Shown here: positions 481 through 6,783 of the stretch, piece by piece | Layout: each line of letters starts with the position of its first letter | Numbering within the stretch: the first letter of the stretch is position 1 | Assembly (NCBI GenBank): GCA_027451265.1 | Contig: DAIDJT010000003.1 | Span: 1-34,137, forward strand | Length of the DNA: 34,137 bases | Source: Bacteroidales bacterium | Lineage (GTDB): Bacteria; Bacteroidota; Bacteroidia; Bacteroidales; VadinHA17 | Direction of reading: 5' to 3' | Position numbers and translations under genes: made by a program | Notes under the pieces: model-generated | Databases searched by the model: none | The model's input: the letters and a program-made list of their open reading frames with translations, nothing else | Told to the model about the DNA's origin: nothing

Positions 481-1983
481 TTAATGTACGTGACCCGAAT
501 GTGCATCCAGTGCCCCGGTAGCCTGGGCAAGCTTGATAAGGATTGCACCCTTTGTCACTATGCGTTCATCATCCTTCAGGCCGCCGGTGACCTCCGTCCT
601 GATCCCGTCAGTTGCGCCGGCCTGTATCACCCTCTTCTCAAACCGTTCAGGCGTGACCTGCACAAACACGAAAAAGGCACCCTGCTCTTCAATCAATGCA
701 GTGTTTGGCACTGTAAGTGCTTCGGCATCCGAAACCGTTTTCAGCCAAAGTTCCACGAAGCTGCCCGGAACAAAACCGGCAATATTCTTAACCTGTATGC
801 TGACGGGGATAAGATAACTGTCTGCAGTGGCAGCTTTCCCGACGGAGAGAATTCTTCCTCCGAGCTCTTCGAGTGTATAGGCTTTATTATCGTCCGCACA
901 CTTAATGGTTGCTGTGGATATTGAGTTCAGAAACCGTGCATACCTTTGCTGCACTTCAGCCCGCAGCATGACAGTGCTGTTTTGTGAAATCACCATTAAC
1001 GGCTGCCCGGCCTCAACATATTGCCCGTTCTCAACCATCAGCTGCCTGACAAATCCTGTTATCGGGCTTGTCACAGTCTGCCCTGACCGGCTGAAATTCT
1101 GCTGCAGGTTCTCATAAACAGACCTGGCGTTTTCAAAACGCGTTTTTGCCTCCAGCAACTGCTTGCCAGACACTATTTTATCTGCCGCAAGAATCACCGC
1201 CCGGTCATATTCAGCCTTCGCCTGTTCATAGTTGTTTTGCGCCTCCGCGAACCTGACTCCGGAGTTGTCTTCTGCAAGACCGCTGCCCCTGATGGTAAGC
1301 AATGGCTGGCCGGATGAAACCTTTATCCCCTCCAGGATATTCTTGCCAGTAAAAGAGATTACTCCGGATGACCGTGCTGTCACCACAGATTCATTTCCCT
1401 GTGCGGGCTCCACCAGGGCAGTTGTTTTTATCACCTGGCCGAAGGGCTCACGCGAAGGATTCCCGGTTGAGAAATCTATTTTCCATGACTGCTCCTTTGT
1501 GAATGCAGTTGTGTTTACAGAGGCAGCTGCATTTTTTTCCACATCCTCCTCTGCCTCGCCGGCACCTGCATATACTGTCACCTCGGGGACAATGATCCTT
1601 GACTCTCCCGTTTCGGTTCTGATCAGGAATTCCATAGTTCCTTTCCCGGCTCCGGCCGGGGTCACATCAAAGCTGTAAATCCCCCTGCGGACGGGGTTCT
1701 CAACCGCCTCTTCCACCGTCTGCCCGTTGACTGTCAGTCTTATTGTCACAGAGCCTGATGGAAGTGGCTTGAAACCGGGAAGTGCAGTAAAGTGTGACAG
1801 AACGTTTGATGAGACGCCTGTCACAAAAGGATCAGCTTCAGCGAACAGCTCGAATTCATCACTGTAAACCGTATAATAAACCTTGAGATCTTCGTGGCTT
1901 GTCTCCGGGCTGACTGTTTTGCTGTTATTGCAGGCTGCCAGAAGCAGTAAGATAACAGGGACCATGAAATATTTAAAGTACAT
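481..1983 (-). CDS. Heavy-metal RND efflux periplasmic adaptor (CusB/CzcB-like) lipoprotein
   Basis: 500 residues. The N-terminus MYFKYFMVPVILLLLAAC is a lipoprotein signal with lipobox LAAC, so the protein should be anchored by Cys18. After a signal-proximal domain of about 120 residues comes a membrane-fusion-protein core: a lipoyl-like half (SSGVISFTGKNILEGIKVSSG), a helical hairpin (EQAKAEYDRAVILAADK, QLLEAKTRFENARSVYENL), the second lipoyl half (SPITGFVRQLMVENGQYVEAGQ), and beta-barrel and membrane-proximal domains. The C-terminus ends in a short His-containing tail, HSGHVH, which could bind metal (inference). It directly precedes the CusA-like pump gene and follows a His-rich exported protein, which fits a Cu/Ag or Zn/Co/Cd efflux operon. 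No TolC-like gene of this operon is visible here; it may lie beyond the pump gene, or the TolC at 6929-8413 may be shared. Confidence 0.9.
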   Translation of the reverse strand: MYFKYFMVPVILLLLAACNNSKTVSPETSHEDLKVYYTVYSDEFELFAEADPFVTGVSSNVLSHFTALPGFKPLPSGSVTIRLTVNGQTVEEAVENPVRRGIYSFDVTPAGAGKGTMEFLIRTETGESRIIVPEVTVYAGAGEAEEDVEKNAAASVNTTAFTKEQSWKIDFSTGNPSREPFGQVIKTTALVEPAQGNESVVTARSSGVISFTGKNILEGIKVSSGQPLLTIRGSGLAEDNSGVRFAEAQNNYEQAKAEYDRAVILAADKIVSGKQLLEAKTRFENARSVYENLQQNFSRSGQTVTSPITGFVRQLMVENGQYVEAGQPLMVISQNSTVMLRAEVQQRYARFLNSISTATIKCADDNKAYTLEELGGRILSVGKAATADSYLIPVSIQVKNIAGFVPGSFVELWLKTVSDAEALTVPNTALIEEQGAFFVFVQVTPERFEKRVIQAGATDGIRTEVTGGLKDDERIVTKGAILIKLAQATGALDAHSGHVH

Positions 1984-2089
1984 TATAATTACTGTTTAAG
2001 ATTGGATTAAAAAGAATGATATCGCAGAAGTTTAATTTCCTGCAAATTGCGGCTATTCTCGGAATAAAACCTTATACAGTTGGAGGGGC

Positions 2090-2503
2090 TCAAAGCCCTG
2101 ATGAATGTGATGAAAGTGAAGAGTAGAGAAATATAGCCGGAGGCGCTGATAACGAATACAATAACTTAGTTCCCGGCGAGCCGGTTTCATTGGCCTGCAA
2201 GCCAACAAAAAGGTTTTCGCCCCATGGCTGGCTGCACTTTTTATCAATTAATTTCAAACCGGCAGTAAGCTGGTTTGAGCTCACAACCACAGGGTCTTTC
2301 AGAACACAATGACCGTCACCGTCTTCGCCATCGTGATGGTGATTATCGGGGCTGGAACCATGGTCACCTGCAGGCTCCTCACCTGTGCAGTGTGATTTTA
2401 TAAAACAGATCAGGTTACCGTGATGATGATGGGGTACAACAGCATGACCCAGGAACAGTAATCCTGCCATTAATAAAAATGATGCTGCTGTGTGTTTAAT
2501 CAT
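2090..2503 (-). CDS. Small His-rich exported protein, probable metal-efflux accessory
   Basis: 137 residues. A hydrophobic N-terminus (MIKHTAASFLLMAGLLFLGHAVV) looks like a signal peptide or single anchor. It is followed by two His clusters, PHHHHGN and DNHHHDGEDGDGH, and Cys residues (LICFIK, SHCTGE, GHCVLK) in the first half. The second half lacks His and ends in a moderately hydrophobic stretch (LLYSLSAPPAIFLYSSL). It lies about 106 bases before the RND adaptor on the same strand, which suggests a periplasmic metal-binding or metal-buffering role in the efflux operon; this is inference from composition and context. Small His-rich proteins beside RND metal pumps are common in Bacteroidetes. 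It resembles what I remember of the DUF6769 group, but I cannot confirm that assignment. A near-match to the -7 promoter box (GATATTTG) lies upstream. Confidence 0.75.
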   Translation of the reverse strand: MIKHTAASFLLMAGLLFLGHAVVPHHHHGNLICFIKSHCTGEEPAGDHGSSPDNHHHDGEDGDGHCVLKDPVVVSSNQLTAGLKLIDKKCSQPWGENLFVGLQANETGSPGTKLLYSLSAPPAIFLYSSLSSHSSGL

Positions 2504-2551: not shown

Positions 2552-2587
2552 TTCATTCACTGCCGGCAAATTGCATTCATTCACTGC
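2552..2587. repeat. 12-bp direct repeat spanning the LolD-like gene stop codon, period 24
   Basis: TTCATTCACTGC occurs at 2552-2563 and again at 2576-2587. The second copy contains the end of the LolD-like gene (minus-strand CAG TGA ATGAA), so the downstream copy repeats the last codon and stop codon. Confidence 0.7.
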
Positions 2588-3234
2588 ATTATCAGACCGT
2601 CCTTGATCCTGATCGTCCGGTCAGACATCGATGCCAGTTGCGGGTCATGGGTCACAATGATGAATGTATGCCCGAAAGTGTCACGCAGCCTGAAGAAGAG
2701 ATTGTGAAGCTCCTTCTTGTTTTCGGTGTCAAGGTTACCGGAAGGTTCGTCTGCCAGTATCAGTGACGGACTGTTTACAATAGCCCGTGCCACGGCAACA
2801 CGCTGCTGTTCGCCTCCGCTCAGCTGTGAAGGCTTATGGTCAAGCCTGTCACTCATTCCCAGGAAATCTAGGAGTTCTGTAGCCCTGGCTGCCGCCTCGG
2901 CACGTGATTTCCCCGCAATGAGCGCCGGGATACAAACATTCTCAAGCGCTGTGAACTCAGGAAGCAACTGGTGAAACTGGAAAATAAAGCCGATGTGCTT
3001 ATTCCTGAAGGCAGCCAGGGCCCGCTGTGAAAGCTGCCCGGGATCCTGTCCGTTGATAAGGACCGTCCCTGCATCAGCCCTGTCAAGTGTTCCGATAATC
3101 TGAAGCAGTGTGGTTTTACCGGCGCCGCTGGCCCCGACAATGGCAACCACCTCTTTCTCTTCCACCTCAAGGTTAATGCCTTTGAGCACCCTGAGGTCAC
3201 CGTATGACTTCATTATGCCGGTTGCCCTTATCAT
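2581..3234 (-). CDS. LolD/MacB-type ABC transporter ATP-binding protein
   Basis: 217 residues, the usual length of a LolD-type ATPase. Walker [10 protein letters not shown] sits near residue 34, the Q-loop is [18 protein letters not shown], the signature is [14 protein letters not shown], Walker B is [12 protein letters not shown] and the switch His is in IIVTHDP. The [16 protein letters not shown] stretch and GNLD are typical of the LolD/MacB/FtsE group, which powers extrusion of lipoproteins or envelope substrates through FtsX-like permeases. Its ATG overlaps the tatA stop as ATGA (four bases), so translation is probably coupled. No LolC/E permease lies next to it; the nearest FtsX-fold permease is the MacB-like protein at 8423-9793, which lacks an ATPase domain. 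It could serve that permease or a distant LolCE, and the sequence cannot decide. Confidence 0.9.
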
Positions 3235-3593
3235 CTTGATTCCTGGTTTAGGTCGCGTGCCGTATCATTTATCTCATCAGAGAGAGGCGAGGCAGCCTCA
3301 GTAAAGTCCTTCCTCACGCTGTTAGTCACGTCATTGATATCGCGCCTCACCGAATTTGTCACATCATTGATATCGCGCCTTACCGAGCTTGTCACATCAT
3401 TGATATCTTTCCTTATATCCTCGGTACTCTCATCAAACTCCTTCTTTATTTCGTCAGTGGCTTTCCGGACCTCCCGCATCCCTTTGCCCATGGCACGAGC
3501 TATCTCCGGCAGCTTGTCAGCTCCGAAAAGCAGCAGAACCGCAATCAGAATGAAGATTATCTCCTGTCCGCTTATGAATAGCAATGTTCCCAT
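3231..3593 (-). CDS. tatA: TatA/TatE-like twin-arginine translocase subunit with hendecad-repeat tail
   Basis: 120 residues. The N-terminus [38 protein letters not shown] has the short single transmembrane helix, the FG hinge and the amphipathic helix of TatA-family proteins, which form the pore of the Tat system for folded proteins. The tail is unusual: an 11-residue unit ([44 protein letters not shown]) is repeated about four times, encoded by exact 33-bp spacing. An 11-residue period fits a long amphipathic or right-handed coiled helix. The gene lies downstream of secDF and overlaps the LolD-like gene. No TatC is in the window, so which Tat system it serves is open. A TAACTTTG promoter-like box lies at 3616-3623. 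Confidence 0.88.
3292..3420. repeat. 33-bp tandem repeat inside tatA
   Basis: Units beginning gtcacRtcattgatat start at 3325, 3358 and 3391, an exact 33-bp period; a more diverged unit precedes them (about 3292-3324). The repeat is in frame and encodes the 11-residue unit [11 protein letters not shown]. Confidence 0.9.
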
Positions 3594-3615
3594 CAGGGTT
3601 GCTTTTTATGCCCGG

Positions 3616-3623
3616 CAAAGTTA
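3616..3623 (-). promoter_or_regulatory. Bacteroidetes -7 promoter box upstream of tatA
   Basis: The minus strand reads TAACTTTG, a full match to TAnnTTTG, 23 bases before the tatA start. No convincing -33 TTTG is seen. Together with the hairpin at 3666-3693 it suggests tatA-lolD can be transcribed separately from secDF. Confidence 0.4.
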
Positions 3624-3665
3624 GTAAAGAATAAGATAAGATATGAAGCAGCCGGCAATAAATGG

Positions 3666-3693
3666 CTGAGGCTGCCTTTCGGGGCAGCCTCAG
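3666..3693 (-). terminator. Hairpin between secDF and tatA, possible terminator
   Basis: CTGAGGCTGCC and GGCAGCCTCAG form a perfect 11-bp stem with a six-base loop. On the minus strand the stem is followed only by CCATTTATTG, a weak T-run, so it may be an attenuating or processing hairpin instead of a full intrinsic terminator. Confidence 0.55.
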
Positions 3694-3704: not shown

Positions 3705-3784
3705 TTAACCGGCTATTTGTTTCTTAATTGGGTCATCGCGGTGAAAATCCGCTCCCGGGCTCTTAACCGGCTATCTTTTTCTTT
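3705..3784. repeat. Imperfect direct repeat of the secDF 3' end including the stop codon
   Basis: TTAACCGGCTAT followed by a near-identical pyrimidine-rich stretch occurs at 3705-3725 and 3763-3783, about 19 of 21 bases identical, offset 58. The second copy is the true end of secDF (KKKIAG, TAA); the first would read KKQIAG and a TAA downstream of the gene. Confidence 0.75.
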
Positions 3785-6783
3785 TCGGTCTCACCTGGAT
3801 GAGCATCAGCTTCTCCACCTTTCTCCTTTGTTGTTTCATAGAGAACCGGGGTTGAAATGAAGAGCGATGAGTAAGTCCCGAAAACTATACCGAATAGCAG
3901 GGCAAAGATAAATCCTCTGATCACCTCCCCTCCGAATATGAAGATCACAATAAGCACGAAGATGGTTGCCATACCGGTGTTGAGTGTTCGGGCCAGCGTG
4001 CTGTTCAGGGCAAGGTTGTAAATTTCCTTCTTGGACCTCTTCCTGTATATCGGCAGATACTCCCTGACCCTGTCGAATATAACCACCGTGTCGTTCAGAG
4101 AATATCCCACCACGGTAAGTATAGCTGCAATAAACGATTGGTCAATATCCATCGAGAACGGCATCACCCCCTGAAGTATCGAATAGAGACCCAGCACAAT
4201 GATCACGTCATGAGCCAGGGCAACAATGGATCCGACTCCATATTGCCACTTGCGGAACCTGATAAAGATATAGAGGAACATCCCCACAAGTGCAAGGAGT
4301 ATGGCCCAGATAGCCTTCGAAGCCTGGTCCTTCGCAATTGTGGGACCGACAGTTTCAGAACTGACAATATTGTTCGCAATGAAACTCTGCTGGTCAACAC
4401 CCGGAACAAGATCCTTAAGACCGGTGTACAGCAGTCCGTTGACCTCGTCTGTTGCAGCAGGGTCCTCAACCTTGTACTTGGTGCTGATCTTTACCTGGTT
4501 ATCGGAACCAAAGGTCACCACCACCGGGTCTCCGCCAAGCTTGTCTGAGAGGAGGTTGGCAATCTCACCTGTATTGACGGGCTGCTCGAACCTTACAACA
4601 TAGGTACGGCCGCCGGTGAAGTCTATGCCCCTGCTCAGCCCCTTGGTTGAAAGACTGACAATGGCGAGTATCGAGAGTGAAATTGAGAAAATGTACCCGT
4701 ACTTTCTCAGGCTTACAAAGTCAATGTGCATGTTCTCAAGGAAATTCTCGGTATAGGGTGCAGAGAACTTAAGGTGAACATTTTTCTTCAGCAGCCACTC
4801 ATAAATGAGTCGTGAGACAAGCACTGCCGAGAAAAGTGAAGTAATGATACCGATAACCAGTGTTGAGGCAAAACCCTTTATAGGACCGGTACCGAAATAA
4901 TACAGAATCACACCGGTAACCAGCGTTGTCAGGTTACTGTCAATGATTGCAGAAGATGCTCCCTTGTAACCGTCAGCTATGGCCTGTTTGACCCCCTTGC
5001 CTCCGCGAAGCTCTTCCTTGATCCTCTCGAAGATAAGCACGTTGGCGTCAACCGACATACCGATCGTAAGCACTATACCGGCGATACCGGGAAGCGTCAG
5101 AACGGCGTTAAGGGAGACAAGAACTCCCATCATGAAGAAGAGGTTGACAGTCATTGCAATATCTGCCACTGTACCGGCTGACCGGCTGTAGTAGAAGATC
5201 ATGTAAATGAGCACGATGATGAAGGCAATGACGAATGATTTCATACCGCTGTTGATAGCCTCCTTGCCAAGGGAGGGACCCACAACCGTATCCTGTATGA
5301 TGTGTGCAGGAGCGGGCATCTTTCCTGACTTGAGGATATTGGCAAGGTCCTCAGCCTCCTCAAGGGTGAAGTCGCCGGTAATTTCGGTGTTTCCTCCGGC
5401 GATTTCATTCTGTACGCGCGGGTATGACCTTACATAGTCATCAAGCACAACTGCTATGCACCTGTTGATGTTGTCACGTGTCATGCGCTGCCATATCTTG
5501 GCTCCCTCGGCATTCATTGAAAAGTCAACCTTGATGTCAGAGCCTGTGACACCGGTTGAAGGACGAGCACTGGTGACGACGTCACCTGTAAGCGGTGCAC
5601 GGCCGTCACGGGTGGTTATTTTTATTGCATGGAGTTCAAACAGGGTATGCGTCGGATCCCACTTATGAGGATTCTGGCTCCAGTAGAACCTCAGTTCCCT
5701 GGGGAAGAGTGACTTGATCTGGTTCATGGCCAGGTAACCATTGACCCTTGCAGTGTCCTTGCCTGCGGCGAAGCCGACTATGCTGCTGGGCTCAGGCTGA
5801 CCTTCTGCTGAAACGTTTGGTCTGAGCAAACCGAAGAGCGGATTCTGGCGGGTAAACTCCTCGATATTGGAAGCTTCGGCTGCGGCGGAAGTGTCACTGC
5901 TTACCATATCAAGGAGTGACTTGTCGCCGGTTGTCGTGTCACGAACTGCACCGGCTGTCCCTCCTGAAGCAATGCTGTCTGTTGCGGCAGCAATTGCATC
6001 GGTTGGCATCACTGACCTCAGAAAGTCATTGGCCTGAATCAGGTAACCGATTACCTCCGGGTTTTCATATGTCTCCCAGAACTCCAGGTTGGCTGTTCCC
6101 TGCAGGAGGTCACGCACCCTCTCAGGGTCTTTCACGCCAGGAAGTTCAACGAGGATACGGCCGCGTGGCTGAAGGTGGGAAATGTTTGGCTGTACAACGC
6201 CGAAACGGTCAATCCTGTTCCTGAGAACATTAAAAGCGTTGTCTATGGCCGAGTTGGTTTCAGTCTCAAGCACCTTCTGCACATCTGCATTGGTGGAATT
6301 GAAGTTGATGCGGTCTTTCAGCTCAACAGTGCCAAAAACACCTGCAAGCCTGGCATTCGGGTCCAGTTCTTCAAAGGACCGTACAAACAGGGTAATGAAG
6401 TCCTCGTTGCTGCCTCCGCGCTGTTTCTGCTTTGCCACTGCAAGCGCCTCATTGAATGTCTTGTCTGTACTGTAGTTTGAAAGAGCCCTGACGATGTCCT
6501 CAACTGAAATCTCAAGCACCACGTTCATTCCGCCCTTGAGGTCAAGACCCAGGTTGATCTCCTTGGTCTGCACCTCCTTGTAAGTATTGCCGAGGAACCC
6601 CCACTGATCCTTTGGCAGGGAGGCAACCGAGTCAATGTATGCCACCTCCTTGTTAAGATCACCTGCTGCATATTCCCTCGCTTCCTTCTTGACCTTGAAT
6701 GAGGCCGCGGTGAAGGAGAGCTGGTAAATGCAAACAAGGGTCAGGGCAATAGCCAGAGCTGAAATTAATCCTTTGTTCTGCAT
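3763..6783 (-). CDS. secDF: Fused SecDF protein translocase subunit
   Basis: 1006 residues, the usual size of the Bacteroidetes SecD-SecF fusion. It uses the proton-motive force to drive late steps of Sec-dependent export. The SecD half has the N-terminal helix, LDLKGGMNVVLEI near residue 80, the large periplasmic P1 region, and the helix cluster with GMSVDANVLIFERIKEEL. The SecF half begins near residue 690 (LRKYGYIFSISLS, GIDFTGGRTYVVRF) and has GYSLNDTVVIFDRVREYL. A Ser/Thr/Ala/Asp-rich insert around residues 260-310 looks like a flexible spacer inside P1. It starts at ATG 6783 after an approximately 50-base leader with a TATATTTG box. Neighbours are tatA and a LolD-like ATPase, all envelope-export functions. 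Its last codons are partly duplicated downstream. Confidence 0.97.
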   Translation of the reverse strand: MQNKGLISALAIALTLVCIYQLSFTAASFKVKKEAREYAAGDLNKEVAYIDSVASLPKDQWGFLGNTYKEVQTKEINLGLDLKGGMNVVLEISVEDIVRALSNYSTDKTFNEALAVAKQKQRGGSNEDFITLFVRSFEELDPNARLAGVFGTVELKDRINFNSTNADVQKVLETETNSAIDNAFNVLRNRIDRFGVVQPNISHLQPRGRILVELPGVKDPERVRDLLQGTANLEFWETYENPEVIGYLIQANDFLRSVMPTDAIAAATDSIASGGTAGAVRDTTTGDKSLLDMVSSDTSAAAEASNIEEFTRQNPLFGLLRPNVSAEGQPEPSSIVGFAAGKDTARVNGYLAMNQIKSLFPRELRFYWSQNPHKWDPTHTLFELHAIKITTRDGRAPLTGDVVTSARPSTGVTGSDIKVDFSMNAEGAKIWQRMTRDNINRCIAVVLDDYVRSYPRVQNEIAGGNTEITGDFTLEEAEDLANILKSGKMPAPAHIIQDTVVGPSLGKEAINSGMKSFVIAFIIVLIYMIFYYSRSAGTVADIAMTVNLFFMMGVLVSLNAVLTLPGIAGIVLTIGMSVDANVLIFERIKEELRGGKGVKQAIADGYKGASSAIIDSNLTTLVTGVILYYFGTGPIKGFASTLVIGIITSLFSAVLVSRLIYEWLLKKNVHLKFSAPYTENFLENMHIDFVSLRKYGYIFSISLSILAIVSLSTKGLSRGIDFTGGRTYVVRFEQPVNTGEIANLLSDKLGGDPVVVTFGSDNQVKISTKYKVEDPAATDEVNGLLYTGLKDLVPGVDQQSFIANNIVSSETVGPTIAKDQASKAIWAILLALVGMFLYIFIRFRKWQYGVGSIVALAHDVIIVLGLYSILQGVMPFSMDIDQSFIAAILTVVGYSLNDTVVIFDRVREYLPIYRKRSKKEIYNLALNSTLARTLNTGMATIFVLIVIFIFGGEVIRGFIFALLFGIVFGTYSSLFISTPVLYETTKEKGGEADAHPGETEKKKIAG

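Follow-up and report, generated by a model that had tools for sequence, protein, structure and literature searches.

A TatA-family protein of Bacteroidales with a hendecad-repeat tail that differs between species by whole units

We describe a TatA-family protein of 120 amino acids whose tail, built of 11-residue (hendecad) repeats, appears to be an ordered, selected and register-preserving helical extension that is shared family-wide; both sequence comparison and structure models suggest a structural role for it. The gene lies in the window, the whole stretch of 34,137 nucleotides that was analysed, which comes from a Bacteroidales genome of 395 contigs. Its named relatives are all metagenome-assembled Bacteroidales or Bacteroidetes. 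TatA is a component of the Tat translocase, the bacterial exporter of folded proteins. Its COOH-terminal tail is usually regarded as disordered and dispensable, and the build of TatA assemblies is still debated. No description of a hendecad-tailed Tat subunit was found in the literature searched.

The explanation that we put forward, which we hold with about as much belief as doubt, is that a long TatA-family subunit in a TatB-like role packs its hendecad tail against the tails of other protomers, with unit number setting the length of the tail. Of the two TatA-family subunits in a Bacteroidales Tat translocase, the gene would encode the longer, whose cytoplasmic amphipathic helix would run on into a hendecad helix, in which 11 residues make three turns. 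One continuous helix is predicted, of approximately 90 residues in this protein and approximately 125 in a six-unit relative, and changes in length by whole units would never bring its hydrophobic stripe out of phase. The narrow stripe, formed by positions 4, 7 and 11 of each unit, may pack on the tails of neighboring TatA/B protomers, and the tail may thereby act as a stabilizer or spacer on the cytoplasmic face of the Tat core complex or of a TatA assembly. The long protein would most likely be TatB-like and stand beside TatC, with a paralogue of 59 amino acids serving as the bulk TatA, and units would be gained or lost through occasional duplication or loss of 33 bp.

Domain layout of the long protein

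The product was recognized as TatA-like in the earlier note on this DNA, and the match to Pfam TatA_B_E (PF02416), which scores 58.5 bits over residues 7–56 (cut-off, 21), bears this out. The score for TIGR01411 (TatA/TatE) is marginally above its cut-off (54.4 vs 53.9), with orthologues reaching 59.8–62.2. The score for the TatB equivalog TIGR01410 is below its cut-off (42.6 vs 56.5, with orthologues scoring up to 48.9), and the long protein is therefore not classed as TatB. Alignment showed that the long protein and its orthologues retain the residues characteristic of the TatA fold. The bounds of the transmembrane helix (Table 1) were taken from the helix at residues 9–23 in the AlphaFold2 model of a 153-residue orthologue together with a residue count; for its polar residue, the corresponding feature of TatA and TatB is the polar E8/Q8 position (PMC13323110). 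After the amphipathic helix, the tail opens with ...DESTEDI and then proceeds in 11-residue units.

Table 1 Features of the tatA-family locus in the window
Feature	Position	Strand	Remark
LolD-like ABC ATPase gene	2581..3234	-	Start overlaps tatA stop (ATGA)
tatA-family gene, 120 amino acids	3231..3593	-	Transmembrane helix, FG hinge, amphipathic helix, hendecad-repeat tail
Two diverged hendecads	3249..3314	-	Fourth, 3282-3314; fifth, 3249-3281
Hendecad unit 3	3315..3347	-	Residues 83-93
Hendecad unit 2	3348..3380	-	Residues 72-82
Hendecad unit 1	3381..3413	-	Residues 61-71
Basic amphipathic helix	3444..3512	-	Approximately residues 28-50, past hinge F23-G24; Pfam match 7-56
Transmembrane helix	3525..3569	-	Residues 9-23; conserved polar Glu11, 13 residues ahead of hinge Gly
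Conserved block TTATTCTTTA-TAACTTTGCCGGGCA ahead of tatA start	3594-3640		Fits Bacteroidota TAnnTTTG promoter box
Perfect 11-bp stem-loop, terminator-like, after secDF stop	3666..3693	-	CTGAGGCTGCC-CCGAAA-GGCAGCCTCAG
secDF, upstream neighbor of tatA	3763..6783	-	

Repeat units of the tail

The tandem array with a period of 33 bp and 11 residues was confirmed: Tandem Repeats Finder reports 2.5 copies of period 33 with 92% matches at positions 3325-3407, and the self-identity of the tail at lag 11 is 0.46, a value that none of 2000 shuffles equaled. The description of this array as about four copies with near-identical DNA needs revision on both counts. There are three good units, with the consensus [RK][RK]D-I-NDVT-x-S-V, followed by two diverged units that keep only the hydrophobic spacing and are found in all closely related orthologues. 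At the DNA level the identity is 27/33 for units 1 and 2 as well as for units 2 and 3, and 23/33 for units 1 and 3. Six base differences separate units 2 and 3, all of them silent, so that both encode an identical 11-residue sequence. Synonymous divergence (pS) in this genome is 0.34 for units 1 and 2 and 0.48 for units 2 and 3, compared with a genus average of 0.78, and duplication or conversion here is therefore younger than average.

Helix geometry and tail chemistry

An 11-residue period was expected in the earlier note to suit one long helix, and the geometry agrees. The hydrophobic stripe is straight at 98.2 degrees per residue (11/3). For nearly all tails of the genus the hydrophobic-moment spectrum has its maximum at 98.0 degrees, and the phase of the stripe stays within approximately 20 degrees across residues 45–153 of the longest form. 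As in a hendecad helix, the 11-residue period is accompanied by a 3-4-4 spacing of hydrophobic residues. Positions 4, 7 and 11 of the unit are hydrophobic and positions 1 and 2 basic, positions 3 and 6 are always acidic in this genus, and position 9 is mostly acidic. The AlphaFold2 model of the six-unit, 153-residue orthologue consists of the transmembrane helix and a single helix of 125 residues (28–152), with block-mean pLDDT values of 84–96 over residues 61–130. The model for the protein of the window is also all helix, with a mean pLDDT of 64, and is too weak to stand on its own. AlphaFold2 can be overconfident in models of lone long helices.

The earlier note also suggested that such a helix might lie on a surface or membrane. 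In HeliQuest, the lipid-binding score is D = 0.944 muH + 0.33 z, with a threshold of 0.68. The amphipathic helix carries a net charge of +3 to +4 per 18 residues and has D values (HeliQuest type) of 1.5–1.85, whereas in the tail most windows carry a net negative charge (–1 to –4 per 18 residues) and nearly all windows have D below 0.68. Only three residues per 11 are hydrophobic, basic residues flank the stripe on one side and acidic residues on the other, and the tails of a sister genus are likewise strongly acidic. Given the net acidic tail and a narrow stripe flanked by opposite charges, we slightly prefer helix-helix association over a membrane-lying tail.

It is nevertheless possible, though on the unlikely side, that the tail is an extended amphipathic helix that lies on the membrane in the manner of apolipoproteins, alpha-synuclein or perilipin 4 and prolongs the TatA amphipathic helix on the cytoplasmic face, with unit number setting membrane affinity or the area of perturbed membrane. 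The stripe of the amphipathic helix runs on into the tail, drifting by approximately 50 degrees between the two. A period of 11/3 characterizes the 3-11 helices of apolipoproteins, synuclein and perilipins. For perilipin 4 a muH of 0.26 is reported, and the tail has higher values along its length (0.4–0.6); the weak 11-mer helices of perilipin 4 can bind lipid surfaces by virtue of their length (PMC5889406). A profile of the family matches apolipoprotein A-IV over the tail with an E value of 1.2e-9. The apolipoprotein-like period and this match keep the membrane-lying part of the earlier suggestion in play; the acidity of the tail and D values that are for the most part much lower than in the TatA amphipathic helix count against it. 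Assignment of the tail to the apolipoprotein domain itself (PF01442) was rejected: the score is 20.6 against a Pfam cut-off of 90, and the tail shares with that domain only the 11-residue periodicity.

Foldseek searches with the model of the window protein gave no match, and those with the 153-residue model gave only weak matches, to E. coli TatA and TatB.

Long protein and short paralogue in the Tat system

The genome encodes one TatC (G000:C225, 231.6 bits) and a second TatA-family protein, a tail-less one of 59 amino acids whose gene lies downstream of a gene for an RseP-like protease (identified by eye). The short second TatA is found in nearly all of the 22 genomes of the genus; a single TatC is present in 19 of the 22, and a twentieth carries TatC in two pieces. 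The long gene is not adjacent to tatC, which is located elsewhere, and separated tatA and tatC loci are common among bacteria (PMC3827258).

The two TatA-family proteins differ in their affinities. On the TatB model the long protein and its orthologues score 42.6–48.9 bits, compared with 23.9 for the short paralogue. Against the solved proteins of N. salsuginis, the short paralogue scores 45.1 bits with TatA and 16.5 with TatB, and the long protein 33.2 and 33.6, respectively. The hinge of TatB is GP, and that of the long protein is FG, the TatA type. At the position of the FK motif described for TatA (PMC13186574), the short paralogue has FK and the long protein VR. In structures of the core complex, the amphipathic helices of TatB form a cage over TatC and those of TatA are mobile (PMC13323110). 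From these comparisons, the short paralogue appears to behave as a plain TatA. A TatB-like role is plausible for the long protein, which could equally be a bifunctional TatA instead. A more elaborate version of the TatB-like role, which we consider doubtful, is a length-tunable receptor in which the hendecad tails of protomers at the TatB position form a cytoplasmic helical stalk or cage of set length on the Tat core complex, which lineages tune in 11-residue steps to their folded cargo.

Unit number and age of the units

As anticipated in the earlier note, the number of units varies between relatives. Fifteen orthologues of the same genus (uncultured Bacteroidales) with a hendecad tail have 2, 3, 4 or 6 clean units, which correspond to full-length proteins of 109, 120, 131 and 153 amino acids, length classes that ignore a four-residue NH2-terminal difference in two orthologues. 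Four more members of the genus (162 amino acids) have a longer, diverged tail that retains the 11-residue period. Three genomes were not fully usable: G016 has a masked stretch, G012 a contig end, and G009 is 70% complete and gave no long copy. In the protein alignment of the genus members with 2, 3, 4 or 6 units, gaps in the tail were 11 residues or multiples of 11, with no other lengths.

On a tree of secDF DNA, the unit count changed at least five times. The probability that five events are all multiples of 11 is approximately 6e-6 if in-frame indels of 1–44 residues are equally likely, a rough figure given that indels are not uniform and that repeats as such favor whole-unit changes. A change in length other than by a multiple of 11 would rotate the stripe, and this is the likely reason for the strict 11-residue steps.

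Across the genus, units within one gene differ from each other with a pS of 0.78, near saturation, and a pN of 0.25. The same unit compared between species has a pN/pS of 0.16–0.25, a range that covers both the units and the COOH-terminus, with 0.11 for the transmembrane and amphipathic core. A unit is often closer (up to 31/33) to its counterpart at the same position in another species than to its neighbors inside one gene. Near-saturated pS together with low pN indicates that most units are old and that selection maintains them. The repeat tail is thus best read as an old, maintained module with occasional gain or loss of whole units between species, not as an active slippage locus.

These data bear on two further explanations. 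In the first, which we consider improbable, a slippage-prone 33-bp array alters tail length between strains as a fast tuning knob, an idea that the earlier note had based on near-identical units. Closely related species do differ in unit number (three units in G011 vs two in G015; three in G018 vs two in G003), units 1 and 2 of the window are more alike than average, and one protein of the sister genus has two identical neighbors of the SKEAEVSKDNV type. However, in most species the units of one gene have diverged almost to saturation at synonymous sites, which argues against a hypermutable (contingency) locus, as do the cross-species similarity of same-position units and the two-unit tail that is common to many species. 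One genome per species was compared, so that the copy-number differences seen are differences between species. The earlier note would have yielded to a fixed unit number combined with strong codon divergence among relatives; the divergence is indeed strong and the unit number is not fixed.

The second explanation seems still less credible: the tail would be dispensable, like that in E. coli, and duplication of 33 bp would have left the repeats behind as neutral by-products. In E. coli, the COOH-terminal domains of TatA and TatB can be dispensed with and show poor conservation (PMC13186574, PMC4121141), whereas the tail studied here combines the low pN/pS given above with strict 11-residue steps and a stripe unbroken across two genera.

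Genomic context

The gene order secDF–tatA–lolD-like is conserved throughout the family, and the overlap or abutment of tatA and lolD is retained in most of the genus. The sequence of the stem-loop after secDF is conserved across most of the genus, and a conserved promoter sequence of the Bacteroidota type, TAACTTTG, lies between the stem-loop and tatA. Given the terminator-like stem-loop and the promoter sequence, tatA-lolD looks like a transcription unit of its own. The least credible of the explanations considered is that the long protein has left the Tat pathway and works alongside SecDF and the LolD-like ATPase, perhaps as a scaffold in the membrane for export of lipoproteins or outer membrane proteins, which would suit the conserved gene order, the overlapping junction and the remote tatC but fits poorly with the conserved TatA-fold signature residues, the presence of TatC in nearly all genomes and the frequency with which tatA and tatC are separated in bacteria.

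Several other features of the region were noted. In this species the CTGAGGCTGCC arm of the stem-loop has an exact copy within the tatA coding sequence at 3291-3301; a functional link between the two was rejected, given that the copy is absent from the other species inspected. No indication of an RNA or phage origin was apparent. In at least one other genus of the family, a gene resembling sodium/calcium exchangers (by eye) stands between tatA and the lolD-like gene (L026:1768-2715), and several more have a gap of approximately 1 kb at this place. Elsewhere in the window (481-2503), a small His/Asp-rich DUF6769 protein (HHHH, DHGSSPDNHHHDGEDGDGH) adjoins a gene for an RND periplasmic adaptor, and the two may constitute a metal-efflux pair.

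Distribution outside the genus

A large sister genus within the family also has hendecad tails, with the consensus [RKQ][KN]D-V-NE-V-x-D-[NS]-I. The register set by the amphipathic helix is kept in 35 of the 36 tails tested there, with approximately five consecutive strict units on average. The remaining genera of the family have short tails of approximately one unit, in proteins of 75–77 amino acids. In another family of the order, one genome (G042) also encodes a hendecad tail. Among TatA-family proteins sampled from Bacteroidota, only two tails of testable length reached p<0.02 at lag 11. The elaborated hendecad tail thus appears to be mainly a family-level feature and not a phylum-wide one. 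Searches of plasmids at the protein and DNA levels gave no match.

In two proteins of the sister genus, L193 (G083) and L104 (G112), neighboring hendecads are identical or nearly so (SKEAEVSKDN twice and EQQAGEIET twice, respectively), and these identities appear to be independent recent unit duplications. Long TatA-family proteins of other kinds were also seen: five Flavobacteriaceae-like ones (L049, L050, L139, L141, L142) share a conserved GPIKRQ COOH-terminus without hendecads, and one from Marinilabiliaceae (L048) has a different long tail.

Significance and comparison with known systems

The tail offers a case of protein length evolving in steps set by helix geometry, and the natural length variants with 2, 3, 4 and 6 units are ready-made alleles for probing the cytoplasmic part of a Tat subunit.

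With TatA/TatE (TIGR01411; PF02416) the long protein shares an NH2-terminal transmembrane helix with a polar residue, an FG hinge and a basic amphipathic helix. The tail of E. coli TatA is unstructured and can be truncated (PMC4121141, PMC5601993), whereas the tail here is a conserved hendecad helix of two to six or more units. The long protein resembles TatB (TIGR01410; solved chains 9e02, 9e03 and 2mi2) in its longer cytoplasmic helical region and in outscoring the short paralogue by a wide margin, but it falls under the equivalog cut-off, has an FG rather than a GP hinge and is encoded outside any tatABC operon. The 11-mer helices of apolipoproteins, synuclein and perilipin 4 likewise have an 11-residue period, a straight stripe and length differences of whole units; unlike those lipid-binding helices, the present tail is joined to a Tat subunit, is net acidic and has a narrow face. 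Hendecad coiled coils show the same 3-4-4 hydrophobic spacing, here over five to eight units, and the same opposite charges on the two flanks, a likeness known for this tail from its sequence.
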